Origin: a virus
Length of the DNA stretch: 22,345 nucleotides
Virus record (IMG/VR): IMGVR_UViG_3300020198_000114
Span: 1 to 22,345 of that record
Strand: one strand, 5' to 3'
Made by a program: the position numbers and the translations under genes. Shown here in pieces: positions 1 through 17,182 of the stretch; position 1 is the stretch's first letter, and each line of letters opens with the position of its first letter. Under the pieces are notes generated by a model. The model was not told the DNA's origin. It did no database searches and saw nothing but the letters and a program-made list of their open reading frames with translations.

Positions 1-3000
1 TCGGTAATTTGATTGCCGACCCTCCGCCCTTCCAAATCCGCTTGCCAATAAGACACTTCAACCAAAGTGCCTTTGATTAATGGCGCGTTGGTTGAAAAAG
101 CGCCCAAGATGGGATTGATTGTTACGTCTTTGCGCGCCTTGGTGATCAGTTCCTCAACGAAGAACCACCCAGCGGATGGGTTTGCCAAATAGGTATTAGT
201 ATCCGCTATAGACGCTTGGAATTCCCCTGTAAGCGGATCATATTCCACCGTGCCTTGAGGCAAATCTGAAGCGTTAAGGAATCGATCTACGTAATAGATC
301 CCAACCCTAGACCATTGGGCCATGAAATCAGACCCAAACTTCATTGTGCCCTTGGGGCCTTCAGACGTATCTTGTGTCAGATACTCAATACCAAGGGGAT
401 CCGGGCTAAAGGCTGCCACTCCGTTAGGGATGTATGTGTCCGTTGGCCCCGCTTGAATAACAAACTTCCCATTGGTAAATCGAGGGTCCGTCGTGTCTGG
501 AATCACCAACCCATTGTACGGCAACCCCAAAGATATCTTTCGCAAAGAGATGAAATTTGTGATGGTGGATGGGGGGTTAGACCCGATTCGGAACGCCATC
601 TTCCTGCCACTTGCCAATGCCTCAGACATCAGCGCCTTAGTGTTCCCCCCGTTAGCGGAAAATATAACAGGCGTCAAAATCCGAATGACCATGGTTTCTT
701 GAGGCAAATGGTCAAAATCCATGTATTGAATATCGGCAACCAAAGCGGGGTCAAAATTTGAAGTGGGTGTCCCGGACTCCAAGCTCCAAATGTATGTCCC
801 TGTCTCTGTCGGAGTCGGGGATACCTCCAAAGCACTAGCAACACTAGTCACCGTATACAGACCCATGCCTTGGACAGATAGAATGTCCCCAACCTTAGCT
901 GCGGTAGTTGTGAAGTCTACGTTGGGGTCACTAAAGACATTACTGCTTGCAATAAAATTCCCATTCGCCCCGTTAGAAACTCGACCCAGGAATCGCTTGA
1001 TCAATACCGCATTGCCGGGAACCCCATCTTGCGGAACTAAGTAATCCGTTTCACGGACCAGTAGGTTAGCGGATCGCCCATCACGGGACACATATAACCC
1101 GCCCCCAACCACCGACTCGAAAGATTCTGGTGAAATTCCCGTGTGACCAAAATTCAACGTGACCGTCGGGGCGTTAGCATATCCATCCACCACAACATCT
1201 CGAACCCAATCGAACTTCTTTGCCGTAAACCGATGAATGATGTCTTGGTAATGGATCAGATTCCTATTGATGACACTTGTTGTATCCCCGTCCGTCACCG
1301 TTGTAGATAGATTGAAGAAAACCCCTTCGTCGATCCCCGCGATATCTTGCAAGGGCACTGTATTTAGGAAGAAAAATGGGGTGGCTTGAATACCATCAAC
1401 CAACACTTGATTATCAACCCGACCTGTTGCATGGAAATCCGCCGTGCCATTAATCCCAGTTGGGTCGGTTGGTGTACGGTACATGCCTATAGACACACCG
1501 GAATCAGGCAACCAGTTATCAATACCTCCAACTACTCGCCATCCTGGAACGAACCCTAAAGCCCTACACCCGGACAGATCAAGCACACCACCAACCCCGA
1601 AACCAATCTCAGCCGAACCGGTAACGGGATCTGCCGCTTCTATAACAATGCGTTCCGCGAATACATAGACCGTAGGCAACCCGATATCAGCGACAACTTC
1701 CGCCGTCGTAAAGTAAGTCTTGGATGGGTTTGCCGTTACCAAAGCCACAGACGCCCACGTATGGGGAACACCATCAATGGCAAATCGCAGAACTTCCGTG
1801 CCATCAAAACGGAAGATGGAACGAATACTAGACACCAGCCTAGCCTTATTGGTGTACGTCGCAGGGGTGAAGGCCGCTTGCAAAAAGAAGATCGGCTTGG
1901 CCTCGAATCGATCCTTATCAATGGGAGACAAATACACCCGCGACCCATGCAAACCCATTTCACGCACGACGTAAGCTGTTCCACCAGGAATCCTAGACGG
2001 AACATCCGAACCCTTGTCAACGACAACGACTGATTCCACAGATCCAAGTTGCGTGAACAAAATCGTATCTGACACGCCATCCTGAACTCGGCGAACACGC
2101 CCCGTCGTAACATCTACTGTGTTATCACCCCCTGGTCGCAAGGACGCATCAACACCAACTTGATCCGGAACTGCACCAGTCCCATCTGGGGCATCAAGGA
2201 TTCCAGAAATACCCAACCCACGCCGCGTGTTTGCAAGAACAAACTCCGTCGACAAATACACATAGGATGGGATGTACAACTCGGATGAAACCGCAGTCCC
2301 TGGATTGCCAACAGCATCTAACAAACGCACTGGAGCCCTTGTAGGTTGTTCAATGCCTGACAAGGAAACCCCATCGTATACCACGTGTTCGCCCAGAAAG
2401 TGCTTGCTGAAGTAAGGGCTTGTCGGGTTAGCTTTTGCCAGGTCGAATGAATTGAACCGCAACTTCCCAGTAGTGGCGGACACCAAAACATTCCCGGGAT
2501 CTACCGAAGGATGCGCCAATAAAATCGCATCTGTAGCGACTACGTTAGCAGTCAGATACTTACGAGAACCGAAACGGATTAGCGGCGTTTCGGTCAAGGA
2601 TGGAACAGGAGTGATAAACCACTCATCATCAGTCATCCGACCAATGATGCCATCATTAGTCGCCATGAAAGTGTTGGGGATGTACCATACGGTCTTGCCC
2701 AAATTGGCTTCCACGAAAGTTGGGTTGAACTCCAATTTACCATTGGATTGACCCACACGACCGTTATATGTTGTTGGGAAGGTCGCCCCACTTTCACTGT
2801 CGGGTCGGACAACGATTCCAGCTACGGGCACAGATTGATTCGCATCGGGGGATGCCCCGATGCGAATCATCCCATAGTCATCTGGCGACCCGGATGAAGG
2901 CAACATAGACCCAACGGGCAGGTTCTTGATAGCCGGGATCATATCATAGAAGTCAACATCCTTACGCAGGACCCCCATGTCCAGTGGGGGCGATCCCTTG

Positions 3001-3746
3001 AATGGTTCCCATCGACGGGATTGGGCAACCCAACCGAAACGGGAACCATAGCGATCGTTCTTTGACCACCAAAATCGAGCAGAACCAACCGTATAATGCA
3101 CAACCAGGATTCGGTCGCCACGATCAGCGGATAGCCCCCCGCCCAAAGATGCGATGTGGCCGTCTGTCAGGTGAACCATGCCCAAGCGAGAATCTTGTTC
3201 ACCTTCTTCAAAATACAAAGTTAAGTACGGGTTATCCCCGTGGCGGGCCTGACCACCATGGTTAGCAGGATTGGTGTCGTTGGGGTCCTTCCATCCATCA
3301 TCATCGTAGTTCGACACATCACCACGGGCTACGACAATAGAATATATGCGCCCAATGTCTTTGTTGTCGTTATCCGTGACCAAGGCAACCCTTGAACCAT
3401 CGGTAAACGCACCTACCGTCTCCGTACCAACGGGAAACTTCCCATAGCCTGTTTCTGTCCACCATACAGGATCTGGGTCTACAGGGCCCGCCAAATTCGC
3501 CGTGTTGGCCGCCCACACCAAGTACTCTGTTGGCGTGGTCCCAGGAGCACCTACTATTGCCGAACGGTATTGATCCGCGGCAGCATCCACGAATGATGGG
3601 GCGTCAACATCCAAATCATAAGCTGCCGGAACCGGACGAGCATCCCGAACAACACCTGTTTGCGTCATCCCAGTTGTCGGAGAATTAGCGGGGGCCACTT
3701 GCGAATCCCGCAACACACTGCCTGTCCCGAACGATCGAAATCCCAC
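1..3746 (-). CDS. Very large virion structural protein, probably baseplate-associated (3' end outside window)
   Basis: Reading the minus strand from 3746 gives one uninterrupted frame to the window edge: 1248 codons plus two bases and no stop, so the C-terminus is missing. The start is GTG at 3746, with AAGGTGG (3754-3760) seven bases upstream; it begins two bases after the stop of the previous gene. The protein starts MGFRSFGTGSVLRDSQVAP and is rich in Gly, Thr, Val and Asp, with a beta-strand-like pattern and no signal peptide or membrane segment. Legible stretches include TTGKLRFNSFDLAKANP, LGEHVVYDGVSLSG and FDPALVADIQYMDFDHLPQE. These resemble large structural proteins I recall from jumbo phages. 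Position just after the hub, spike and small spike-associated gene suggests a baseplate wedge or fibre-anchoring protein. That role is inference. A perfect 15-bp inverted repeat lies in codons 293-304. Confidence 0.85.
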   Translation of the reverse strand, partial: MGFRSFGTGSVLRDSQVAPANSPTTGMTQTGVVRDARPVPAAYDLDVDAPSFVDAAADQYRSAIVGAPGTTPTEYLVWAANTANLAGPVDPDPVWWTETGYGKFPVGTETVGAFTDGSRVALVTDNDNKDIGRIYSIVVARGDVSNYDDDGWKDPNDTNPANHGGQARHGDNPYLTLYFEEGEQDSRLGMVHLTDGHIASLGGGLSADRGDRILVVHYTVGSARFWWSKNDRYGSRFGWVAQSRRWEPFKGSPPLDMGVLRKDVDFYDMIPAIKNLPVGSMLPSSGSPDDYGMIRIGASPDANQSVPVAGIVVRPDSESGATFPTTYNGRVGQSNGKLEFNPTFVEANLGKTVWYIPNTFMATNDGIIGRMTDDEWFITPVPSLTETPLIRFGSRKYLTANVVATDAILLAHPSVDPGNVLVSATTGKLRFNSFDLAKANPTSPYFSKHFLGEHVVYDGVSLSGIEQPTRAPVRLLDAVGNPGTAVSSELYIPSYVYLSTEFVLANTRRGLGISGILDAPDGTGAVPDQVGVDASLRPGGDNTVDVTTGRVRRVQDGVSDTILFTQLGSVESVVVVDKGSDVPSRIPGGTAYVVREMGLHGSRVYLSPIDKDRFEAKPIFFLQAAFTPATYTNKARLVSSIRSIFRFDGTEVLRFAIDGVPHTWASVALVTANPSKTYFTTAEVVADIGLPTVYVFAERIVIEAADPVTGSAEIGFGVGGVLDLSGCRALGFVPGWRVVGGIDNWLPDSGVSIGMYRTPTDPTGINGTADFHATGRVDNQVLVDGIQATPFFFLNTVPLQDIAGIDEGVFFNLSTTVTDGDTTSVINRNLIHYQDIIHRFTAKKFDWVRDVVVDGYANAPTVTLNFGHTGISPESFESVVGGGLYVSRDGRSANLLVRETDYLVPQDGVPGNAVLIKRFLGRVSNGANGNFIASSNVFSDPNVDFTTTAAKVGDILSVQGMGLYTVTSVASALEVSPTPTETGTYIWSLESGTPTSNFDPALVADIQYMDFDHLPQETMVIRILTPVIFSANGGNTKALMSEALASGRKMAFRIGSNPPSTITNFISLRKISLGLPYNGLVIPDTTDPRFTNGKFVIQAGPTDTYIPNGVAAFSPDPLGIEYLTQDTSEGPKGTMKFGSDFMAQWSRVGIYYVDRFLNASDLPQGTVEYDPLTGEFQASIADTNTYLANPSAGWFFVEELITKARKDVTINPILGAFSTNAPLIKGTLVEVSYWQADLEGRRVGNQIT
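2836..2869 (-). repeat. Perfect 15-bp inverted repeat with 4-base loop inside a coding region
   Basis: The left arm (2836-2850) and right arm (2855-2869) are exact reverse complements around the loop at 2851-2854. In the transcript this forms a 15-bp stem, nine pairs of it G:C, capped by CAUC. It encodes residues 293-304 of the left-edge structural protein (MIRIGASPDANQ). No T-run follows, so it is not a standard intrinsic terminator. Its function is unknown. Confidence 0.9.
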
Positions 3747-3748
3747 GG

Positions 3749-4399
3749 CTACACCACCTTTGAAAACGACGGTCCAGTAGACGGCAATGATCCTGACTGA
3801 CCTACCACCTTACCGTTACCAACACCCGTCAGGACCAAAGATGCAATACCAAACCCTAAACCATGAGCTAATTTAATCGACGCCGCCCCAGTCATACTGT
3901 TGTTTGCCATTGCCTTTTGTAGTTTCATGATAAGAGCAGAAGGATTCGATATCACCACCTTTGATACATCCGTCCCAACCCCTACCGTGGGGCACACCCC
4001 GGTGTATCCCCCAAACTGCGTTAAGGCATGGACAACAGCCAAAGTCACAATGGCAGACAAACTCGTGGATAAGGGGCCAACGATACCCGCAGAGGACAAC
4101 CCCTCCGTCACCAATGGAATTGCAGGGTGTATGATTATCTTGGTGTTGTGCTTGTGAATCACCCCGGACCCAACCGTTCCGGTTGATATGCCTTCTACGA
4201 CCACATTCAATGGGTCAGTAACCCAACCCAGAAATCCTTCCGCAATGGACCATGCCAATTGATCGAATGCAGCACCTTCCATTGGGAACACTGATGAACC
4301 CTTATACATTTGCAACGCACCATAAACAACAACCTCGTTCAACCCAATACCAACGCTAGGGTTCTTTACCACAGGGGATTTGTTAAGATTGGAAGTCAC
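3749..4399 (-). CDS. Small glycine-rich virion protein, possible spike-tip or spike-associated protein
   Basis: This 216-residue protein is rich in Gly, Val, Ala and Ser. I chose the GTG at 4399, which overlaps the spike gene's TGA as GTGA. A TTG at 4441 would add 14 residues but overlap the spike gene by 46 bases. Three glycine-rich turns follow hydrophobic or helical stretches: GTVGSGVI, GVGTDVSKVVI and GVGNGKVVG, hinting at an internally repeated fold. Alternating small and hydrophobic residues fit a compact beta structure; there is no clear signal peptide. I do not recognise the family. A gene directly after a central spike often encodes a tip or hub accessory such as a PAAR-type protein, but no classic PAAR motif is visible, so that role is only a suggestion from context. 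Confidence 0.75.
   Translation of the reverse strand: MTSNLNKSPVVKNPSVGIGLNEVVVYGALQMYKGSSVFPMEGAAFDQLAWSIAEGFLGWVTDPLNVVVEGISTGTVGSGVIHKHNTKIIIHPAIPLVTEGLSSAGIVGPLSTSLSAIVTLAVVHALTQFGGYTGVCPTVGVGTDVSKVVISNPSALIMKLQKAMANNSMTGAASIKLAHGLGFGIASLVLTGVGNGKVVGQSGSLPSTGPSFSKVV
3754..3760 (-). promoter_or_regulatory. Ribosome binding site for the left-edge structural gene
   Basis: AAGGTGG on the minus strand lies seven bases before GTG 3746. It decides the start: there is no nearby ATG, and the next in-frame ATG is codon 27. Confidence 0.7.
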
Positions 4400-6789
4400 T
4401 TGAATCCGCCAATGTTGAAAGATTTTGCCCCTATACCCCAAGTCGAGTAAGGCAGCCCAGTAAAGGGCTCCAAACTTCCTGAAACGATTATCGATCCTAT
4501 CTCAGTGATGGGCCCTCCAAAGTATACACCCGCACCCCCCATTATCGCAGCTTGGCCTCCCGTTGAGACCACCGCCACACCAGCCGTACCAGATACCGTG
4601 GCCATTCCAGCGGCAGCTGTCATAGACAAAGACCCCGCTTGAGCTGTACCAGAAATGCCCGATGTCCCAATCTCTATCTTGGATGCCATAGCCCGGGCAG
4701 TCCATGACCCTAAATTCGTCTCGTAAGTCATATTGCCGATCAGAATGGTCGTTTTATGGCTACCTGCATTGAACTGTTCTTCCCGGTCACCTAAGGTATA
4801 CAACACCCTTTCTGCAACACCCGCATATGATGGGGTGTACGTCCGCTCGTGTAAGGGCATGTTTGTCGGCATCCCATACTTGGGGCCGCCAAAAGATTCT
4901 TGCGCTTTGCCATTGGAATGCATCTGGTAGGTGTCGGTAGATATAGATACTCGGGCCGCCCCATCCAAAGTCAGATCCCCATGAGACGTGATGCCAACAT
5001 TTGCTGCATTGATCGTAGCCGCCCCAGCTTTGATGGCAACCAACCTTTCAGCTTTGATACGAGCACTGGTTCTGGCCAGAATGTCTACTGATGGTAAGTC
5101 CCCTTCCCCACCATCGGTACCGTTATTACGTTCACCAACAGCAGAATTGTTCTTAGGCGGCCCCCCACCGTAAATCTGAACAGACCCTTCAGATGCCGAT
5201 ATGTTCAGGGATGACTTGTTGTTGGTAACCCATTCTAAGTGACCGTCGGAGATAAACCGCATCCCCCCGCCCAAACCAATCTTCAATGAACCGGACATCG
5301 CAATTTCAGCCGAAAGTCCACTAGGTTTACCACCAATAGACGCCCTAAACTGCCCAGACTTGTTTACACCCCAAAATGTCCCTTGTGACTCAGTGTTACC
5401 CACCGGAGGAATCATGCGGAATAACGACGCTAATTGATCTCCAACCGGAGTCCCCCCATTCAAGTCGGCTCCATCCAACCGTGGGACTGGCATATCCCCT
5501 TCAAAGATCCGTGCCACCAATGGAACACCATACTTTTTGCGACCCTCCTGGGAATATGGGTCATTACCTACTACGGAGCCCATGACGAATTCCATGAAAG
5601 GCACATTAGACGGAGGTGTTACAGGGTCCGCATTCGGATTCGACCCTGGCAAACGATCTGCATCAAACAGATCTGTTTGTTCCGTAACCGGGAGAATTCC
5701 ATCAGATGTGTGGTTGACCTCAATACGATATTCCGTAAAAGTTCTTTGCCCCGCCGCGGTTACGGCATTTGACTTACCATCAGATGCCACACGATAGATG
5801 GATTTGCCTCCGTAATAACCTGACGGATCGTGCTTAGCGTCAACGACAAATCCTGTTTCACTGATGAACCCACCATTCGCCAAGAACACATAAGGATCTA
5901 AAGCACCCCCACTTAGAATAGTCGGACGAGACTTGCCGTCAGCCAAACGGGATCTAGCAAGCAAAGCCGTTGGGGATAAAAACCCACGCGGGGCTTGTTC
6001 ATTCGTTTCGTTATCTGACACATGGAACGGTTCTCCGTCCAAGGACTGATTGACGTCATCCCAGTGAGTACCATCAGACACCATCGTCTTAGGCAGGAAG
6101 GTAGCATCCCGTTGCACCATGCCCGCATAAACACGCGCCCCGGCCATTGCATGAAACTGCTGCAAGGATCTAAGGACCAACGCCTGGTCTTGATCCCGAA
6201 GACGAATTTCATTGCCTCGCCGATTAGCCAGCATGACACCTTCATCCAGCACCAGGTCTGATCCTTGGGATGATGAAGCCAGAACATTGCCCGGGTGCAT
6301 GTGCCGCATCTTCATGCGGACCATCGCATGGGCGCCTTCCGTCATTGTCTTAGCTCGTTCGGATGACATGTCAAATTCATCTGGGTCAAATGACGCGACG
6401 GTCGTCCAATGACGGGCAAAGGAAGTGCCCGGTAAGACCCACGCCAGAATCACTGGAGTCTTGGTTCCGCCCCCTGTTTCCGAGCTTTCTTGTGGTAACC
6501 ACCCAACGACACACATATCACCGATCTCAGGAAGCGCCCCAAAGAAATGCCGCATACCAGCACCCGGGAAAGAAATGGGAACTGGAACCCGTTCGTATTG
6601 CCCCGCCGTTCCAATAATGGTGCGGAGAGTAGCCGTGAAGGCTTCATAGTCAATGTTGACAACCCTAGCCACACCCATGCCCCAATTCAGGTCTGGGTTC
6701 ATCCTGTCCAGATCGCCACGGGCCTTGGCTTCGGATGCTAAGATTCTCGACCGTTGCCCAACATCCCGAGCATGTGAAGTCTTAGCCAT
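4396..6789 (-). CDS. Baseplate central spike protein (OB-fold plus beta-helix, gp5/VgrG-like)
   Basis: Probably the membrane-piercing spike under the tail tube. Numbered from the upstream ATG at 6801, residues 40-125 look like the OB-fold of gp5/gpV/VgrG proteins: GMGVARVVNIDYEAFTATLR, then FPGAGMRHFFGALPEIGD and MCVVGWL. Residues about 485-620 and 680-765 are Gly/Ala/Ser/Thr-rich repetitive strands (for example SLSMTAAAGMATVSGTAG), typical of a beta-helical spike. The region 130-480 between them is long and unrecognised. I see no lysozyme domain of the T4 gp5 kind. Two starts are possible: ATG 6801 (801 residues, 20-base overlap with the hub gene) or ATG 6789 (797 residues, 8-base overlap). 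Neither has a strong ribosome site; I chose 6789 for the shorter overlap. Sitting directly after the hub gene supports the call. Confidence 0.85.
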   Translation of the reverse strand: MAKTSHARDVGQRSRILASEAKARGDLDRMNPDLNWGMGVARVVNIDYEAFTATLRTIIGTAGQYERVPVPISFPGAGMRHFFGALPEIGDMCVVGWLPQESSETGGGTKTPVILAWVLPGTSFARHWTTVASFDPDEFDMSSERAKTMTEGAHAMVRMKMRHMHPGNVLASSSQGSDLVLDEGVMLANRRGNEIRLRDQDQALVLRSLQQFHAMAGARVYAGMVQRDATFLPKTMVSDGTHWDDVNQSLDGEPFHVSDNETNEQAPRGFLSPTALLARSRLADGKSRPTILSGGALDPYVFLANGGFISETGFVVDAKHDPSGYYGGKSIYRVASDGKSNAVTAAGQRTFTEYRIEVNHTSDGILPVTEQTDLFDADRLPGSNPNADPVTPPSNVPFMEFVMGSVVGNDPYSQEGRKKYGVPLVARIFEGDMPVPRLDGADLNGGTPVGDQLASLFRMIPPVGNTESQGTFWGVNKSGQFRASIGGKPSGLSAEIAMSGSLKIGLGGGMRFISDGHLEWVTNNKSSLNISASEGSVQIYGGGPPKNNSAVGERNNGTDGGEGDLPSVDILARTSARIKAERLVAIKAGAATINAANVGITSHGDLTLDGAARVSISTDTYQMHSNGKAQESFGGPKYGMPTNMPLHERTYTPSYAGVAERVLYTLGDREEQFNAGSHKTTILIGNMTYETNLGSWTARAMASKIEIGTSGISGTAQAGSLSMTAAAGMATVSGTAGVAVVSTGGQAAIMGGAGVYFGGPITEIGSIIVSGSLEPFTGLPYSTWGIGAKSFNIGGFK

Positions 6790-9700
6790 TTGGACTACCA
6801 TCAGTTAGTTTCTTCTTGATGTCCGCAGCGGTCTTCTTAGACGCCTCAAACGCCCTTTTCGCAGCATCTACACTACGAGCTTGCTGATCAAAATGTGCAC
6901 CCAACCCACTAGCTGCCTGAATGATAGACGTCGGATGACCATTGGGCGTATCCCCACGCAAAGCTACTTGAGATTGAACCCACGGGATGGCAACTTGAGA
7001 TGTAGTCTGTTGGACCCATTGGACAGTACGATCCACCGCCGCTTCCCCTGATGCGTTGCCGTAATTCGGTTTTCCCGCTCCGGTGAACTGCACATAGCCT
7101 TTGGTTCCCGCAATATCCAGCAAAACTGACGCCTCAGATGCCTTACACGAACAAAACCCCCGCGACGTATGCGGAACCAAATCTGCCAAGCTATAGGCCG
7201 CGTTAATGATAGGCAACTTGGTGATGCCGTCCTTACCATCAGCCACCCAAGCAGCCAATCCAGTCTTCAAAGCATTGCCGTCCGTAGCCGTCTTATCCCG
7301 AATCAGATGATCCGCGTTGACATAGTTCCGGCCAAGAACCCGAACAACCTCGTCTTCCAAGTATTTTTCAGCTATGGCCCCAGCCGCAGCGACCCGCTTC
7401 ACCAGTTTCGGATTATCTGGATCCGGTTGATCAATGAAAATCTTCTGCTTCCGAACGAACACCCGTAAGATGTCATCCACTAACGTCTTGGATAACATGG
7501 AGAAGATGTCTTGCCGATGCAAAACATCAAACACCCCTTCCGGATCAATAGTCACATCACGCCCGTACCTGTATGACCCAATAACGCGGTAACCTTGAGC
7601 ATCCGATATGGGGAACACAGGTGTCGGAACCAAAATCGCCCCACTACCTGATTTGCCTGCCTTACCCCTGACCTTACGAACCTTTTGGGTGGTGATTCGA
7701 GAAATAGCCGTGGTCTTCGAGATCCCCGTCGCACTACCTAAGAAATTATTGTAAGAGGACACAATAAAATCAACAACTTCTGGACTCAAACCCAGAGATT
7801 GCATATTTGCAACCCATGCTTCTTGTGATAGCATGAAAGCATTGAAGTAGGCCTCAACGTAAGCTCTAGCCAACGGAACCCATGCGTTCTTGATGGGGAC
7901 CATATCTGACCCAGCCCACGCTGTCCTAATGTTTCCTTTGCTATCCACCTTAGCCTTGCCAGCCGTGGTTAACTGCCCCTTATCATCTTTGTCCTCAGCA
8001 AACACATAACTATTCAAGGGAACTTTGGTGGATACCTGACCACCATTAGACGCCGAGACGTGAACAGGCAGATCCACCTTGGGAAAATCAGGAATCTTGG
8101 CAGCATCCGATGGAACGATCCCCACCTTGCACGCTGCAAAGGCTTTCCCCATGACCTTGGACATACTCATCAACCACGGACCCATAGCCCATTCCAACGT
8201 GTTCGTGGGCAAGGGCGTTCCTATGCTGTCAGACCTATTCAAATCTGACACATTCCGCTTCCATGCTTGAACCATATCATCGCCCGATACGATGACCGCT
8301 ACCTTATACGTATTCGACCCGCGATGATTATCCCTAAACACCCGATGAGACGCGAACATCAGTTCACGAATCTCCGACGTAGGCAACACTTCACCAGCCG
8401 GATAGTTCGTATTGTTGGTGAACACCGTAATGCCGCGCTGTGGAACCTTATCCTTCAACTCAGCTTCCGGCCGTAACCCTTCAGGGCCTGTCGATGGGTG
8501 TGCCACATATTGTTTACAAGGCAACTCTTTCCACATAGGCTCCAAATACGCCGATGTCGTCACCAACTTCTTCTTGATCGTATCCGCATCCTTAGTCAAA
8601 TGAATGGTCAAAAGGTCTTGGCCTTGATCCTTGGCATGTGGAGAGGATGACGAATAGTAACGATACGATCCTGGCAAGGACTTGTTGGAAAACACTGCCT
8701 TCTTGTCCGACAGCATCTCAAGCAAAGTAATAGATGACCTGGGGTCCCCTGTAAACTTACTTTGGAACGAGTCGGGGGCTTGAAAAGAATCGGTCACCCG
8801 GCGTAGCAACCGCCGGAACTCCGCCAACTTACTATGATCATGCTCCGAAATTTGATCTACTTGCATGCTTTTGGCAGCATGTTCATCCATGGCTTGATGC
8901 AATTTACGATCAGCCGCCAGTTTCTTTGCATCCGCCCGGTCTGCGGCTCTTGATGCCGCGGTTCCAACTTCGTTGGCCCCAGGCATCTCCGCAGCCCGGG
9001 TTGCCGCTTCTTGCAATTCCTTCGCCACCTTAGCTAAGCGTTCCAACTTGGGCAAGGACTTAGCGACCTTTGTAGCTTGCTTTTTTTGGTAGGCAACCAA
9101 ATCCCCAGCCGCTTTCATTACGTTCACCGCCCCCTTCATACCCTTAGCAATGATGGGGGAGACGAACTTCTTTTCAATCTGATCATCTGGTACGGAGTTG
9201 GGCGTCTTAAGATAAAACCACATGCCTTGTTGTCCGTCGCCGTTCCGGACAACGTAATACGGCCCAGGACGTTCCCCTGAGTTATCAGGCCACGAGTCCA
9301 CGATGGACATTCGCACCGCTTGTTTCATCAAGTATTCCAACGTTGCGGGGTCAGTGATTTTGTCGACATCCGACCCCACAATCAAAAACATTGGATCGAT
9401 TTGATTAGGGTCCAAAGCCATGACGACGTTCGGGAAACCTGACAATCTGGGGCGCCCAGACAAATCCAAAACCTCCAATGGCTTTTCCGGCAGTAACATG
9501 TTCGACATATCAATAGCTTCAATGCCGCGTTTGTCCGGGTAACCAGGAGCGAAGAACTTGGATCGTTTACCAATCAGTTGCAACGACGTAACACAACCAG
9601 ACCCAACGGAAAATGAATGGGCAAACGAATTGCAGTAGTAGAAACAATCCAAGTAGGGAACATAAACTGGGTAGCCTGGACGCAATTCCGGTCGCAACGG

Positions 9701-11941
9701 GATAGTCAATGAACCTGACTTGGTGGGGGCATTCATGATGTCTAAGCGATTGACCGCCGCATAGAACATCGACTTTTCATCAGTGAAGTATGACGATTCA
9801 AAATTCCCGGGCCGCCACCCGAATTGAGACACCAAACGGTAATCTATGTAATGACCTTGAACCCCCATTTCATTGTCAATGCCTACCTTGATGTTCGAGA
9901 AATGAGACCCTTTACACACCATGTAAGTGGCTTGAGGTTCCTTTTCATCAAAATTGATCGAAATGATGTCAATGTCCTCAATACGATAAACCCGCGATCC
10001 GCTAGTATCTAAGTTGTACATCGGTGGTTTGAATACGAAATCACCGTCCACATCTTGATAGAACTCGAAACCCGTGGCTTCACAAACTTTGTTTGCCACA
10101 TCCAACTTGGATTCATAGGTAGACTCAAACAATTGGACGGAACCCCATTGGGCAACGTCCGAAACAAAGGCTTGCATCTCGGCCATATTGATTTCCAACT
10201 TGGTAGATGATGCATTTTGGCCGGGAGGCCGACGAGAGCGTGCTTGAACCAAAGCCTCCAACTTTCGCTTGTTGTATAACCCAACGGAAATGGCTTGAGA
10301 CAAGATATTGTCGCCCTTGGCCCGATTACCGTTGAACCGACCGCGGACTAATGACATGAGTTCGGATGATGAAGCACTAGCCAGGAAAGCCGCTTGGACA
10401 GAATTGAACATTTCCCCTGTGATACCATGCATCCTCAGCTTGATATCCTTCAAGCTGAATCGTTTTTGCCAATACTTGAGGTTCAAGGAATAGAGGGACT
10501 CCCCCGTCAAGTCAGACGACGCCGTTTGGTTGGTCTTTTGGGCCAGTGCCCATGAAACCCCTGCTGCCGCCCCGGCAGTATCGTGATGCAACGCATACAT
10601 AATTTCGTAAGGATGTTGGCCCGTAAAATTGTTACCCAACAAACTCATCTTGTTCCCAGAGTTCGGGGCACGAGCACCAAACACCGATGCGTTAGTTGAC
10701 ATTTGCTGGTATTGCCAAAAATGCAACATCGACACGCACTGAATAGACGCGGTATGCATACCCCCCGAATAGGAATGGGACACTTGAGTCATAACCCCGT
10801 GGAACACATGATAGTATGGGTAAGCCAGGACATTTTCGATGTTGTACCCATCCAAATCCAAAGACTCTAGGGTGGATGGGTCAAAGGATGATGTCCCGGT
10901 TCCTCCTCGTGTCAATCGCCCATCGGAGGTTGTGGATGGGACTCCTTCTTTGGCGGACAAGACATAAACCTTTGCGCCTGTCTTGGGGTCTTCACCTTGC
11001 TTGATCCCCATTTGTCGCATCAAGGTCTTAAAGCCTGGCATACCGTTATCAGGAACTTCTGGGTTGTCCCGATAACGCAAGAATCCTTGATCACCATATT
11101 TTTGAATGAACGCTGCATGTGCCTTAGTTGCATCGTAAGCGGAATCAAAAGTGGCAAACTTTTGATCGTATGACCAATACAAATCCCCCTTATGGTATTG
11201 ACCATCTGGATTTGGCGTGACACTGAAGCCATCTTCTGGCCCGTCCTTCTGTCGTTTTTCCTTCGTCTTGAAGGTGACGGATGGGCGACCCGCCGTACCA
11301 GGGGATCCCGCTTTTTGGCCATACATCATATGATCCTTACGATGGATCCCCCCAGATTCATTGTACGACCACACTAAGGACTTGGCGACGAACCGGTCTT
11401 GCTCTAATTGGTTCCCTGGATACGTCTCAACAGCCACCTTCCGAATGACCCCTTCGAATCGTTCCTTCCATTGGACTGGCGTCAACTTTTCACCATCTCC
11501 AGGTTTTGGAACAACCTTGCCCGCCGGATCTTCCTTCACCACCGGATTCGGGGAGGTCTTAGAATCAAGCACGCTCAACTTGGATTTTTCGGTTTGTTGA
11601 CCAAGATTCGAGTACATCCCTTTGACAGGGAAATACCCGCGCATATAAACGTGAACTTCCAAACCAGGACGCAAAATGAACTGGGCGTCCCGGATAAAGG
11701 AATCCCGATGATGTGAAGGGATTACTAGAGAAAACGTGGCTGATCCAGACCCAGGATCACATCCCGCATCTACCGACACCTCAGTAATAAACCTCTGTAA
11801 ATCAATGGATGAATGACACCGTTGGCATCCAGGCAAAGTCAGATCCCCGTTAACGTAAACCAAGGCATCAGGCGTCACTTGCACCAATTTCTGACTACCA
11901 AGACGCCACGTCCCGACATAAGGCCTATTCCCGATACTCAT
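6782..11941 (-). CDS. Giant baseplate hub protein (gpD/gp27-like) with long C-terminal extension
   Basis: 1719 residues; ATG 11941 overlaps the preceding stop as ATGA, with AGG about eight bases upstream. Residues 31-105 begin with a CxxC pair (PGCQRCHSSIDLQRFITEVS), then SATFSLVIPSH and a strand leading to YMRGYFP. Residues 372-405 (YHVFHGVMTQVSHSYSGGMH) and 586-800 (STYESKLDVANKVCEATGFE through GYPVYVPYLDCFYYCNSF) have the look of tail hub or gpD-like proteins that form the ring holding the spike. Residues about 930-1045 are Ala/Lys/Glu-rich and probably coiled-coil. Residues 1050-1719 match nothing I know, and the last 40 residues again look helical. Such hubs are usually about 350-550 residues, so this one is much enlarged. 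Neighbours are two tail-initiator-like genes upstream and the spike downstream, matching usual hub order. Codons 952-954 contain an A AAA AAG slippery sequence. Confidence 0.8.
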   Translation of the reverse strand: MSIGNRPYVGTWRLGSQKLVQVTPDALVYVNGDLTLPGCQRCHSSIDLQRFITEVSVDAGCDPGSGSATFSLVIPSHHRDSFIRDAQFILRPGLEVHVYMRGYFPVKGMYSNLGQQTEKSKLSVLDSKTSPNPVVKEDPAGKVVPKPGDGEKLTPVQWKERFEGVIRKVAVETYPGNQLEQDRFVAKSLVWSYNESGGIHRKDHMMYGQKAGSPGTAGRPSVTFKTKEKRQKDGPEDGFSVTPNPDGQYHKGDLYWSYDQKFATFDSAYDATKAHAAFIQKYGDQGFLRYRDNPEVPDNGMPGFKTLMRQMGIKQGEDPKTGAKVYVLSAKEGVPSTTSDGRLTRGGTGTSSFDPSTLESLDLDGYNIENVLAYPYYHVFHGVMTQVSHSYSGGMHTASIQCVSMLHFWQYQQMSTNASVFGARAPNSGNKMSLLGNNFTGQHPYEIMYALHHDTAGAAAGVSWALAQKTNQTASSDLTGESLYSLNLKYWQKRFSLKDIKLRMHGITGEMFNSVQAAFLASASSSELMSLVRGRFNGNRAKGDNILSQAISVGLYNKRKLEALVQARSRRPPGQNASSTKLEINMAEMQAFVSDVAQWGSVQLFESTYESKLDVANKVCEATGFEFYQDVDGDFVFKPPMYNLDTSGSRVYRIEDIDIISINFDEKEPQATYMVCKGSHFSNIKVGIDNEMGVQGHYIDYRLVSQFGWRPGNFESSYFTDEKSMFYAAVNRLDIMNAPTKSGSLTIPLRPELRPGYPVYVPYLDCFYYCNSFAHSFSVGSGCVTSLQLIGKRSKFFAPGYPDKRGIEAIDMSNMLLPEKPLEVLDLSGRPRLSGFPNVVMALDPNQIDPMFLIVGSDVDKITDPATLEYLMKQAVRMSIVDSWPDNSGERPGPYYVVRNGDGQQGMWFYLKTPNSVPDDQIEKKFVSPIIAKGMKGAVNVMKAAGDLVAYQKKQATKVAKSLPKLERLAKVAKELQEAATRAAEMPGANEVGTAASRAADRADAKKLAADRKLHQAMDEHAAKSMQVDQISEHDHSKLAEFRRLLRRVTDSFQAPDSFQSKFTGDPRSSITLLEMLSDKKAVFSNKSLPGSYRYYSSSSPHAKDQGQDLLTIHLTKDADTIKKKLVTTSAYLEPMWKELPCKQYVAHPSTGPEGLRPEAELKDKVPQRGITVFTNNTNYPAGEVLPTSEIRELMFASHRVFRDNHRGSNTYKVAVIVSGDDMVQAWKRNVSDLNRSDSIGTPLPTNTLEWAMGPWLMSMSKVMGKAFAACKVGIVPSDAAKIPDFPKVDLPVHVSASNGGQVSTKVPLNSYVFAEDKDDKGQLTTAGKAKVDSKGNIRTAWAGSDMVPIKNAWVPLARAYVEAYFNAFMLSQEAWVANMQSLGLSPEVVDFIVSSYNNFLGSATGISKTTAISRITTQKVRKVRGKAGKSGSGAILVPTPVFPISDAQGYRVIGSYRYGRDVTIDPEGVFDVLHRQDIFSMLSKTLVDDILRVFVRKQKIFIDQPDPDNPKLVKRVAAAGAIAEKYLEDEVVRVLGRNYVNADHLIRDKTATDGNALKTGLAAWVADGKDGITKLPIINAAYSLADLVPHTSRGFCSCKASEASVLLDIAGTKGYVQFTGAGKPNYGNASGEAAVDRTVQWVQQTTSQVAIPWVQSQVALRGDTPNGHPTSIIQAASGLGAHFDQQARSVDAAKRAFEASKKTAADIKKKLTDGSPNG
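9060..9086 (-). promoter_or_regulatory. Candidate -1 ribosomal frameshift site (A AAA AAG) in the hub gene
   Basis: Seven A residues followed by G (minus strand, 9087-9080) place the heptamer A AAA AAG in the correct frame across codons Q952-K953-K954. A -1 slip would add six residues (ASYKGR) and stop at TAA 9062-9060, giving a 960-residue product. GGGGA lies about 14 bases upstream, and GCTAAG...CTTAGC downstream could pair as a 6-bp stem. Whether it is used is unknown. Confidence 0.3.
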
Positions 11942-13569: not shown

Positions 13570-14273
13570 CACCCAACTCCTTGATTGCGCAATGTGCTAA
13601 TGCCCAACCGATCTATGGATGAAGCTTGTCCTTGAGCACCAGTTGGACCCATGGCATTCAATGACATAGGACTACGAAACCGCTGGATCTCATCAGAAAC
13701 CTCAAAAGTAGCAGTTAAGATGAATTGATGCGGCTGAGTGGCATCTTCAGACACACTAAAGGTCTTGAACCACCCTAAATAAATCCCTCCATCAAAAGTC
13801 ACCTTGATGATGCCTTGGAACACGATCCTCCCGGCCGTGTCATAAATGGACCCGTTGTTATGAAACATGGATAACATATCCAGGTACTTGTCATATGCGA
13901 TGGTTTCCCGACGTGTACCCCCGGCCCCGTATGCCCCCGGCCCCCCAGTAATGTTAGATAAGCCCGAATACAACCGAAGGAATCCGCCAGTAGCCATATT
14001 GAAGTCAATGGTCTGAACTCCGTCCCCCCAATGTTGTTCGACGTAACCCCCCTTCGTTTGTGTGCGTTCAATAACTTTCTCGTAATTCAACTGCATCGAT
14101 TGAGGGTTGACATGTAAGACTAAAGCCATCCCATCAGGCAAAAGGGACGTTTCATAGTCTGGCGCCAAGATGTCAAACACCACGGGCTTCCGATTGGCCG
14201 CAAGGTTGAATTCATCGTTTGGCGACGAAAAAGCAGATCGAAATAATGGGATAGCATTGCTACGCCTTGCCAT
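13569..14273 (-). CDS. Tail-initiator or baseplate-hub-associated protein
   Basis: 234 residues; ATG 14273 shares its A with the tape measure stop (TAATG), with GAGG five bases upstream. Residues 48-196 form the core: LVLHVNPQSMQLNYEKV, then HWGDGVQTIDF and GGFLRLYSGL, a helix (YDKYLDMLSMFHNNGSIYD), then FDGGIYLGWFKTFSV and a final strand ending in FEVSDE. The WG-x5-I-x-F, FHNxG and DGxxYxG elements recur in the same order in the downstream gene. The C-terminal 35 residues are Gly/Ser/Gln-rich and probably flexible. It directly follows the tape measure gene, the usual place for proteins that start tail-tube growth on the hub. It is more likely a baseplate-tube joining protein than an enzyme, and no catalytic motif is visible. 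The exact family is not recognised. Confidence 0.8.
   Translation of the reverse strand: MARRSNAIPLFRSAFSSPNDEFNLAANRKPVVFDILAPDYETSLLPDGMALVLHVNPQSMQLNYEKVIERTQTKGGYVEQHWGDGVQTIDFNMATGGFLRLYSGLSNITGGPGAYGAGGTRRETIAYDKYLDMLSMFHNNGSIYDTAGRIVFQGIIKVTFDGGIYLGWFKTFSVSEDATQPHQFILTATFEVSDEIQRFRSPMSLNAMGPTGAQGQASSIDRLGISTLRNQGVG
13577..13582 (-). promoter_or_regulatory. Ribosome binding site that favours ATG 13569 over GTG 13572
   Basis: AAGGAG on the minus strand, seven bases from ATG 13569 and four from GTG 13572. Confidence 0.7.
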
Positions 14274-17182
14274 TATGTCCTCACCCGCATAGTCTCCAGG
14301 GCCTTCAAGATAGCGTTAGGTACATCACCCCATTGATTGACATTGATGTTGATAACACCCCCGCCACGACCACCACTACGACGACCCCGGCGATGAATAT
14401 CCACCACGTCATCATCCGCTATCGCGGCGAACTCACGACGTCCGCTAGAGTCAGAGTACATCAGTTCGCCATCCTTCATTCTTACGACATTACCAGAAGC
14501 CGCTAAAGCCCTACCACGGAGATCCTCATTTTGAATGGTGTCCGCCCGACCGGCCAGAACGGCCCGGGCCGCAGCTAAAGCTTCTTCCTGTTTGGCACCA
14601 CCACTCATCAGAGCACTGGCGATGCGAGTTGCCTCTAAGGTTTGGAATATCTTTTCGAACCCCTTCAAGGTTTCTTCACGGTTACGTCCCGTCCGCTTGT
14701 CTGCTGCTCGTTGATCCTTTTCAAAAAAGAATTGATCCACTTCTTTTTGGCTCTTCTCATACTTTTCTTCATCCCCTTTGGCAGACGAGTACGCCGCAAT
14801 TCCAGCAGGGACCGCCCCAACCCCAGCAGTCAACAATCCACCGGCGACAGCCCCCCCAAGTCCTTGCGCAATGGGATCTAACGTAGGGCCCAACACTTGG
14901 TTTTGTTTATAGGTATGCCCTGCAAGTGCCCTTTCCCGTTCCAGTTTTTCTTTTTCTGCCTGGGTCATGGTGACCAGAGTCGCCTGTCTAATGATGTCGT
15001 CCGCACTACCTCGAGTTTTGGACCGATGTACTTGCCGTTTGACTTCCCGTTGACGAGTGATTTCCTTCTCGATCTCCTTTCGCTTTTCACGGGATCCCTC
15101 ATCCGTTCCTTTGACATCACCTAGCATCCTCGTCAAATCTTCGATTTCCTTCTGGACCCGATTTGCGGCTTCATCCTTCATTTCCCGGTTAGCCATACCC
15201 TTGAAACCTGGAATGAAACCCAAAGCCGATACAATTTCGCGAATGGAATCATCAATGGAGTACAACAACGCTTCAATCCGACTCTCAAGTATTTCCGATA
15301 GGGATCGGGTGTTGTCCCGAATGTCACTGGCTATTTCTTGATCCTTGATCCAAGCGTCCTCCTTCTTCTTCTTTTCCTCTTCCAGTTTCTTAGCCCCATC
15401 TTCAGCGGTCGATATCATCAGGCCCATTTCCTTGCCAATCCCCTCCATGGTCACTTTATCGCCCTTGGACTTCAATGATCCAATAGCATCTCGTAGCATG
15501 TCCATGTCTTGTGGGGTCATCTTTCCGCCAACTTGTTCCGCAGCGATTCGACCCACAATATCTTCAGTGTCCATCCTGTCCATATCCAACCGGCCGCCTT
15601 CAACAGCATGCGCGCCACGCACCTTTGCCATCAACCCGCCATACGCCCCCCAATTTTGTATGGCATTCACACCCCCACCTAACCCCCCCTTCCCTTCACC
15701 CGCTCGGGCCACCATTTGGGCATGAGCCGTCTTGGTGCCTAACCCCACTACACCTTCAACCTTATTCAAATCCGCACGCAGAATGTCCGCTTGGTCTCTA
15801 GACATTTGACCTAAACCCTTGGCTAAATCTTCCGGGGACATGTCCGCTCTTAACCCTGCTCTTTCCAATGCCTTATTCAGAGTTTCCTTGCCTGCGCCCC
15901 CCTTCTTCTCGATATCCCTGAAGGACTTACCCAAGGATTCAGCTTGGATCCTGGCGTCAATCTTCGATGTTTCCCGCACTTGCCCTTTGCCCATCTTCTT
16001 GAAACTAACAACGGCATCTCTGGTCGACAAATCTTTGCCTTGCCCCGCCAAAGACTGAGCCCATGCTTTGCCTGCATCTGGGCCCAAAACCTTCCCAGCC
16101 TTAGACAGAAGACCGATAGTGTCTTGTAACCGCACGTTGTACATAGACATGCCTGTCGTAACTTCCAAGACCATGCCGTAGAACCGCTTGGTGTCAAAAC
16201 CTGATTGCTTGGCCGCCGCCGCGATTTCATGAAAATTATCCCGAACACCCTCTAAGGTTGATGACGTTTCTTCAGCCATCTTTGCCATATCGCCAGCAAC
16301 TCTATCCGCGGACTCCCCCAGCAACTTGGCATAGATCACCGTGCCTTTAATCGCTTCCCGTAACTTCAGGGCCGCTTCAGCACTATTCTTGGACCCCTCT
16401 TGGATTTTATCTAAAGTCATGCCCCCTTTCTGCAATGATCCTAGTGCCGATACTGCATCCTTGGTGGAAATTCCCATATTTTCCAGGTAATCAGCGGCGG
16501 CACCCCATCCGGCAAAAGCTTTACGGACATTTTCCATCCCGCCCGCGATATCACTTCCGAACTCTTGCCCGGAAATACCGGCCTCAATCATTGATTTGTT
16601 CAAATCTTTGATTTTGGCATCGGCATCCATAACGACTTTAGCCAATGCCGCCAACCCAACAGCAACCCCGGCGATTGCCATGATGGCAGGCCCAATCGCC
16701 GCTAACCCCTTACCTAAACCAGCGACAGCATCGCCGCTAAGGCCGCCCATAGCGGTTGCTTCCATCTTGGTACCAGCAGCTGTAGCCGCCTTCCCCATCT
16801 TTTGGAACATCCCAAAGATCGAACTCATATCCTTTGACTTAAGAGTTTGGAAGGCACCTTGAATGCCTTCGCCAAAGGTTTTGGATGCCTCCCCCATCGC
16901 TTGGGCCATCACCCGCTTAGACTTAGGGTTGCCAAAGGTCTTACTGATTTTCTCAGCTTGATCATTCAATATCTTGAAGCGTTCCTCATCCCCCTTCAGT
17001 AACGCCTTTTGCATTTCGTCTTTGACACGCCTAAGTCGCTTGTCTAATCTTTCAACATTCTTACTCCCCCAATCCATTTGCCTAGACTTCACGATAACCT
17101 CATTGATGAGGTTATCCATGTTCTCTCTCACCTTTCCGATCTGGTCATCAAGACCCGCATACATAAGGTTCTTGGACGCCAT
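14273..17182 (-). CDS. Tail tape measure protein
   Basis: 969 residues; ATG 17182 follows the previous stop by 11 bases, with GGGGGA about six bases upstream. Long charged helices occupy residues 12-115 and 590-760. There are two hydrophobic Gly/Ala stretches, about 150-185 (LAAIGPAIMAIAGVAVGLAA) and 765-800 (GGAVAGGLLTAGVGAVPAGI), which tape measure proteins often carry. The C-terminus has a Gly/Arg linker, then GGVININVNQWGDVPNAI, a common tape measure ending. These proteins set tail length inside the tube and are ejected ahead of the DNA. At about 0.15 nm per residue the tail would be roughly 145 nm, a rule-of-thumb estimate. Two chaperone-like genes upstream and baseplate genes downstream fit the usual order. 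No lytic or peptidase motif was noticed. Confidence 0.92.
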   Translation of the reverse strand: MASKNLMYAGLDDQIGKVRENMDNLINEVIVKSRQMDWGSKNVERLDKRLRRVKDEMQKALLKGDEERFKILNDQAEKISKTFGNPKSKRVMAQAMGEASKTFGEGIQGAFQTLKSKDMSSIFGMFQKMGKAATAAGTKMEATAMGGLSGDAVAGLGKGLAAIGPAIMAIAGVAVGLAALAKVVMDADAKIKDLNKSMIEAGISGQEFGSDIAGGMENVRKAFAGWGAAADYLENMGISTKDAVSALGSLQKGGMTLDKIQEGSKNSAEAALKLREAIKGTVIYAKLLGESADRVAGDMAKMAEETSSTLEGVRDNFHEIAAAAKQSGFDTKRFYGMVLEVTTGMSMYNVRLQDTIGLLSKAGKVLGPDAGKAWAQSLAGQGKDLSTRDAVVSFKKMGKGQVRETSKIDARIQAESLGKSFRDIEKKGGAGKETLNKALERAGLRADMSPEDLAKGLGQMSRDQADILRADLNKVEGVVGLGTKTAHAQMVARAGEGKGGLGGGVNAIQNWGAYGGLMAKVRGAHAVEGGRLDMDRMDTEDIVGRIAAEQVGGKMTPQDMDMLRDAIGSLKSKGDKVTMEGIGKEMGLMISTAEDGAKKLEEEKKKKEDAWIKDQEIASDIRDNTRSLSEILESRIEALLYSIDDSIREIVSALGFIPGFKGMANREMKDEAANRVQKEIEDLTRMLGDVKGTDEGSREKRKEIEKEITRQREVKRQVHRSKTRGSADDIIRQATLVTMTQAEKEKLERERALAGHTYKQNQVLGPTLDPIAQGLGGAVAGGLLTAGVGAVPAGIAAYSSAKGDEEKYEKSQKEVDQFFFEKDQRAADKRTGRNREETLKGFEKIFQTLEATRIASALMSGGAKQEEALAAARAVLAGRADTIQNEDLRGRALAASGNVVRMKDGELMYSDSSGRREFAAIADDDVVDIHRRGRRSGGRGGGVININVNQWGDVPNAILKALETMRVRT
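17093..17116 (-). repeat. Inverted repeat (10-11 bp stem) near the start of the tape measure gene
   Basis: Arms GATAACCTCAT (17093-17103) and ATGAGGTTATC (17106-17116) are exact reverse complements separated by two bases; as RNA it would be a 10-bp stem with a four-base loop. It encodes residues 23-30 of the tape measure protein (DNLINEVI). Function unknown. Confidence 0.7.

Follow-up and report, generated by a model that had tools for sequence, protein, structure and literature searches.

A perfect inverted repeat in a putative huge-phage structural gene and its probable origin in replication template switching

Introduction

Why would a viral structural gene carry a perfect hairpin that its reading frame simply runs through? 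The question is raised by a 15-bp inverted repeat at positions 2836–2869 of the window, as we call the whole 22,345-nucleotide stretch of viral DNA analysed here. The readings offered in the initial annotation of this DNA were an RNA element, a protein-binding site and a scar of template switching. Quasipalindrome-associated template switching, as formulated in the Ripley model, is known from T4 rIIB, from the thyA and lacZ reporters of E. coli and from yeast CYC1. It was in T4 rIIB and yeast CYC1 that quasipalindromes were first linked to mutation by template switching (PMC7202029), and the process is also on record for protein-coding yeast genes (PMC8604942).

Results

The repeat reads TGATTCGCATCGGGG-gatg-CCCCGATGCGAATCA, with arms that are 100% complementary (15/15 pairs) and a loop of 4 nt, which the inverted-repeat search placed at 2851–2854 (minus strand). 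The arm lying 3' on the mRNA (2836–2850, minus strand) codes for (S)PDANQ and the arm lying 5' (2855–2869, minus strand) codes for MIRIG; the mRNA-sense strand over the repeat is TGATTCGCATCGGGG CATC CCCCGATGCGAATCA. The hairpin occupies codons 293–304 (M293–Q304, MIRIGASPDANQ) of the minus-strand frame 3–3746, and its arms pair codon to codon (GGG/CCC, ATC/GAT, CGC/GCG and ATT/AAT). Both the sequence and the repeat search bear out the initial description of a perfect 15-bp hairpin with a 4-base loop in these codons, and the frame is open through 2836–2869, undisturbed as had been stated. Folding of 106 nt of RNA around the stem gave -51.9 kcal/mol (z -5.0; z -4.3 against synonymous recoding).

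A G+C-rich 15-bp stem with a 4-nt loop would suit an intrinsic (Rho-independent) terminator inside the gene, but no T run follows the stem on either strand and the site is not listed by the terminator scan. The initial annotation was right in judging that this is not a standard terminator, a candidate that we rejected and to which we attach practically no likelihood. A second, weaker repeat that it had singled out, with 9-bp arms and a 30-nt loop at 3002–3049 (minus strand), does exist but is ordinary, about one such repeat being expected per window. Elsewhere in the window, a perfect 10-bp inverted repeat with a 4-nt loop (GATAACCTCATTGATGAGGTTATC) lies at 17093–17116, near the start of a 969-codon gene (14273–17182); further 9-bp short-loop repeats are found at 2568–2594, 10435–10458 and 11144–11166, and an imperfect one (18 nt, 83%, loop 4) at 57–96, near the 3' end of the gene that hosts the hairpin.

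That host gene (3–3746, minus strand) has 1248 codons in the window, its 3' end lying at the window edge, and encodes a putative structural-module protein of huge phages. The gene itself had no match in Pfam or PHROG; a weak match to a PHROG described as tail fiber came from one of 11 family members, and the family profile brought up no credible hit among PDB sequences. Searches returned 34 further distinct family members; one lies in the 485-kb record LR745208.1, and others come from viral contigs as long as 536 kb. Because homologues of the neighbouring 1719-codon gene were found on four contigs of 372–536 kb, each of which also holds a gene of the family, the window probably belongs to a huge-phage structural module. 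The closest relative, L005 (55% protein identity), joins the window gene with full support and is hereafter called the sister. Later scans added further family members, none closer to the window gene, and looking for nearer relatives with different alignments and a different gene brought up none above 55%. No nucleotide relatives were found in phage records and no protein relatives in plasmids, and neither the exact hairpin pattern in viral contigs nor the core pattern in genome contigs had a match. In one member, L013 (5001–13949), the family gene is apparently fused in frame to the following long reading frame, which stays open almost to where the locus ends; a 14-bp perfect hairpin is present there at 11781.

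The 15-bp stem is far from what synonymous variation offers. When all 13 genes of the window were recoded 400 times with synonymous codons, perfect stems with a loop of 3–10 nt reached 12 bp at most; extrapolation from a roughly four-fold drop per base pair gives a 15-bp stem in about 1–2 of 10,000 windows under this null, an extrapolated value that agrees with the rough count of about one in ten thousand made in the initial annotation. With the amino acids at the site fixed and synonymous codons drawn at random, a perfect stem arises with a probability of about 6e-5, and protein sequence and codon usage alone give a mean of 9.5 of the 15 pairs; therefore, both the motif and the codon choice contribute. 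The surprise is smaller against the empirical background, because in-gene stems of at least 14 bp occur about twice per 810 kb of family coding DNA. The hairpin is real and non-random, and simple chance is an unlikely source of it.

None of the 34 other distinct family members has the perfect 15-bp stem. Other perfect stems near the site in these relatives are 5–11 bp long, mostly at different positions, and the mean excess of pairing in the register of the window, for the 34 relatives against their own synonymous recodings, is +0.1 pairs. The alignment with relatives that had been proposed as a check speaks against an RNA element where the core residues RIG..PDA are shared (L035, L036, L041 and L049), pairing in these members being no better than synonymous chance; only in the sister L005 did it reveal partial pairing. 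There, an in-register quasipalindrome has 13/15 pairs with G-U allowed and 8/15 by Watson-Crick rules. When the codons shared with the window were held fixed, the 13 G-U-allowed pairs compared with 9.3 expected (P=0.003), and Watson-Crick pairs alone gave P=0.06; the fold of L005 is as strong as that of its own synonymous recodings (z +0.1). A mild second case is L030 (8/12 pairs, P=0.02 before correction for 34 tests). The pairing in L005 fits what may be an old quasipalindrome in the two-member lineage of the window and L005, and would be weak evidence of selection on structure. Rfam gave no match at the gathering threshold in the window and one chance-level match elsewhere in 2600–3200, and an Rfam element was rejected. 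Since the perfect stem is found in no relative and there is no excess pairing outside L005, a conserved RNA element is not supported, and this suggestion of the initial annotation largely fails.

We surveyed 810 kb of family coding DNA for perfect inverted repeats, counting identical repeats once, taking the longest open frames as genes without annotation, and deriving the expectation from synonymous recoding. Stems with loops of 3–10 nt were in clear excess, and the excess grew with stem length: observed against expected counts were 42/10.5 at ≥10 bp (4-fold), 21/3.3 at ≥11 bp (6-fold), 9/1.0 at ≥12 bp (9-fold) and 4/0.3 at ≥13 bp. It fell to about 2-fold for loops of 11–30 nt (43/22.9) and was gone at 31–60 nt (34/31.0). 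Mirror repeats, which served as the control, gave 10/9.3 at ≥10 bp, with small excesses in the longer classes, where counts are few. In 240 kb of the sister genome, seven in-gene stems of at least 11 bp were observed against 0.3 expected. A weaker short-loop excess (7/4.8 and 4/1.2, in smaller data), together with some excess at longer loops, was seen in parts of four further huge-phage records, among them that of the distant relative L004. The in-gene hairpins of the relatives are spread over different genes and positions, and the family-wide excess shows that such repeats arise mainly by something other than chance. The 536-kb sister contig also bears perfect hairpins of 14–17 bp with loops of 4–6 nt outside called genes (L108 16358–16395, L109 13798–13831, L110 17110–17145 and 18943–18974, and L115 19093–19126); most have no clear T run directly after the stem and so are not typical terminators.

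A parallel case was found in a close pair of family members, L022 and L021, which are 96.7% identical over 300 bp. At 2021–2053 of L022 the left arm reads CTGGGCCGTGTCC in place of the CTGAGTCAGGTGC of L021, i.e., five changes in nine bases, and the changed arm is the exact complement of the right arm, resulting in a perfect 13-bp stem in coding DNA. This stem lies within a homologue of the window gene at 4396–6801, changes the protein from LGRV to LSQV, and is absent from more distant relatives as well. Because one stem position differs on both arms between L022 and L021, the right arm of L022 probably mutated first. A scan for mutation clusters among pairs more than 80% identical returned the L022 case only, at 13 bp, and a scan in which the match to the arm of the relative itself had to be exact found nothing. 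Clustered substitutions in one arm are thus seen in L022/L021, whereas the nearest relative of the window is only 55% identical.

Which arm of the window repeat changed may be read from the family. Residue frequencies along the MIRIG arm are M.91, I.44, R 1, I.12 and G 1, and along the PDANQ arm P.79, D.21, A.68, N 0 and Q 0, the closing N and Q of the 3' arm occurring in no other member at those columns. In a structure model of residues 205–420, MIRIG forms a family-conserved beta-strand and the 3' arm a loop (model residues 94–100, block pLDDT 86). On residue frequencies, rather than by reconstruction, the 3' (PDANQ) arm is the likelier copy, a role as recipient that its predicted loop would also suit, and the MIRIG arm the likely donor. 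The recipient-arm residues D, N and Q, against S, V and S in L005, are not clearly above gene-wide divergence.

Discussion

From the sequence we infer both the origin of the repeat at 2836–2869 and the direction of copying: the hairpin is probably the product of a quasipalindrome-associated replication template switch. The starting point would have been an imperfect inverted repeat supplied by the protein motif R-[ILV]-G-x-x-P-x-A, which sets GGN against CCN and CGN against GCN in antisense codon register. During replication the growing strand may have stalled, formed a fold-back and used the MIRIG arm as its template before resuming on the original one, leaving the other arm as an exact reverse complement. 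Codon-to-codon pairing of the arms would have kept the reading frame intact, and the protein would have tolerated the rewriting because the altered arm codes for a loop. The hairpin itself is probably without a dedicated function.

Of the readings in the initial annotation, the template-switch scar emerged as the best supported, through the inverted-repeat excess that depends on distance, the L022/L021 pair and the presence of unique residues in one arm. The perfect repeat in codon register counts in its favour, as does an excess that shrinks as the arms lie farther apart and does not extend to 10-bp mirror repeats; against it count the 55% identity of the nearest relative and the single clear homogenisation pattern in a close pair, where moreover one stem position differs on both arms. 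The L022/L021 pattern and the distance-dependent excess are marks of template switching known from T4 rIIB and from genes of E. coli and yeast (PMC7202029, PMC8604942). The coding events of Saccharomyces cerevisiae likewise involve arm homogenisation leading to clustered non-synonymous changes in genes, but there close strains let events be reconstructed, unlike in this huge phage with its distant nearest relative (PMC8604942). The mitochondrial coding palindromes of Nematomorpha (PMC6649704) are also perfect inverted repeats embedded in protein-coding genes; they reach 284 bp and both arms code for conserved regions, whereas the window repeat has 15 bp and only one well-conserved arm. As in the systems of the Ripley model, a short-loop inverted repeat lies in a coding gene and one arm is the exact reverse complement of the other; unlike in those systems, the mutational step is deduced here from relatives that are distant and from one comparable case within the family.

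An RNA hairpin specific to the window/L005 lineage, or a DNA cruciform or dyad protein-binding site, could instead be kept by selection, for example by slowing ribosomes between domains or attracting RNase. The strength of the stem is what such an element would show, and L005 forms the same stem with G-U pairs and keeps more pairs than expected, a surplus that counts against a pure scar and could hint at maintenance. Yet the L005 fold is no stronger than its recodings, the relatives as a group show almost no excess pairing, Rfam is silent, and the in-gene hairpins of relatives sit at other positions and in other genes, so that we regard selection for such an element as unlikely. Selection for hairpins is, in principle, another conceivable source of the family-wide hairpin excess.

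Chance would need the conserved motif to give a partly complementary codon register and codon luck to do the rest. Almost two thirds of the pairs do come on average from protein sequence and codon usage, and where many windows are read, the picking out of a rare event is expected; the low probability of perfect pairing given the residues and the inverted-repeat excess across the family nevertheless make this account improbable. An assembly or library artefact in the form of a fold-back chimera might be suspected in a single metagenomic contig of which neither the viral collection nor phage DNA yielded an identical copy. Such a chimera would end homology at the repeat, whereas here the frame continues into the family-conserved residues SVPV, and a related quasipalindrome exists in L005; this candidate was rejected as very improbable.

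Replication template switching, the reading we favour, accounts for a conspicuous coding palindrome with no need for a regulator, and makes the hairpin a known kind of mutation product, seemingly frequent in these phages, in a new place. We suggest, tentatively and with some doubt, that this family of huge phages might be subject to unusually strong mutational pressure from template switching, which would rewrite several residues at a time in short patches of structural proteins and leave coding hairpins as scars. The inverted-repeat excess in the coding DNA of these huge phages is measurable and offers a way to study template switching by polymerases, and changes of several residues in such genes are not necessarily a sign of positive selection.
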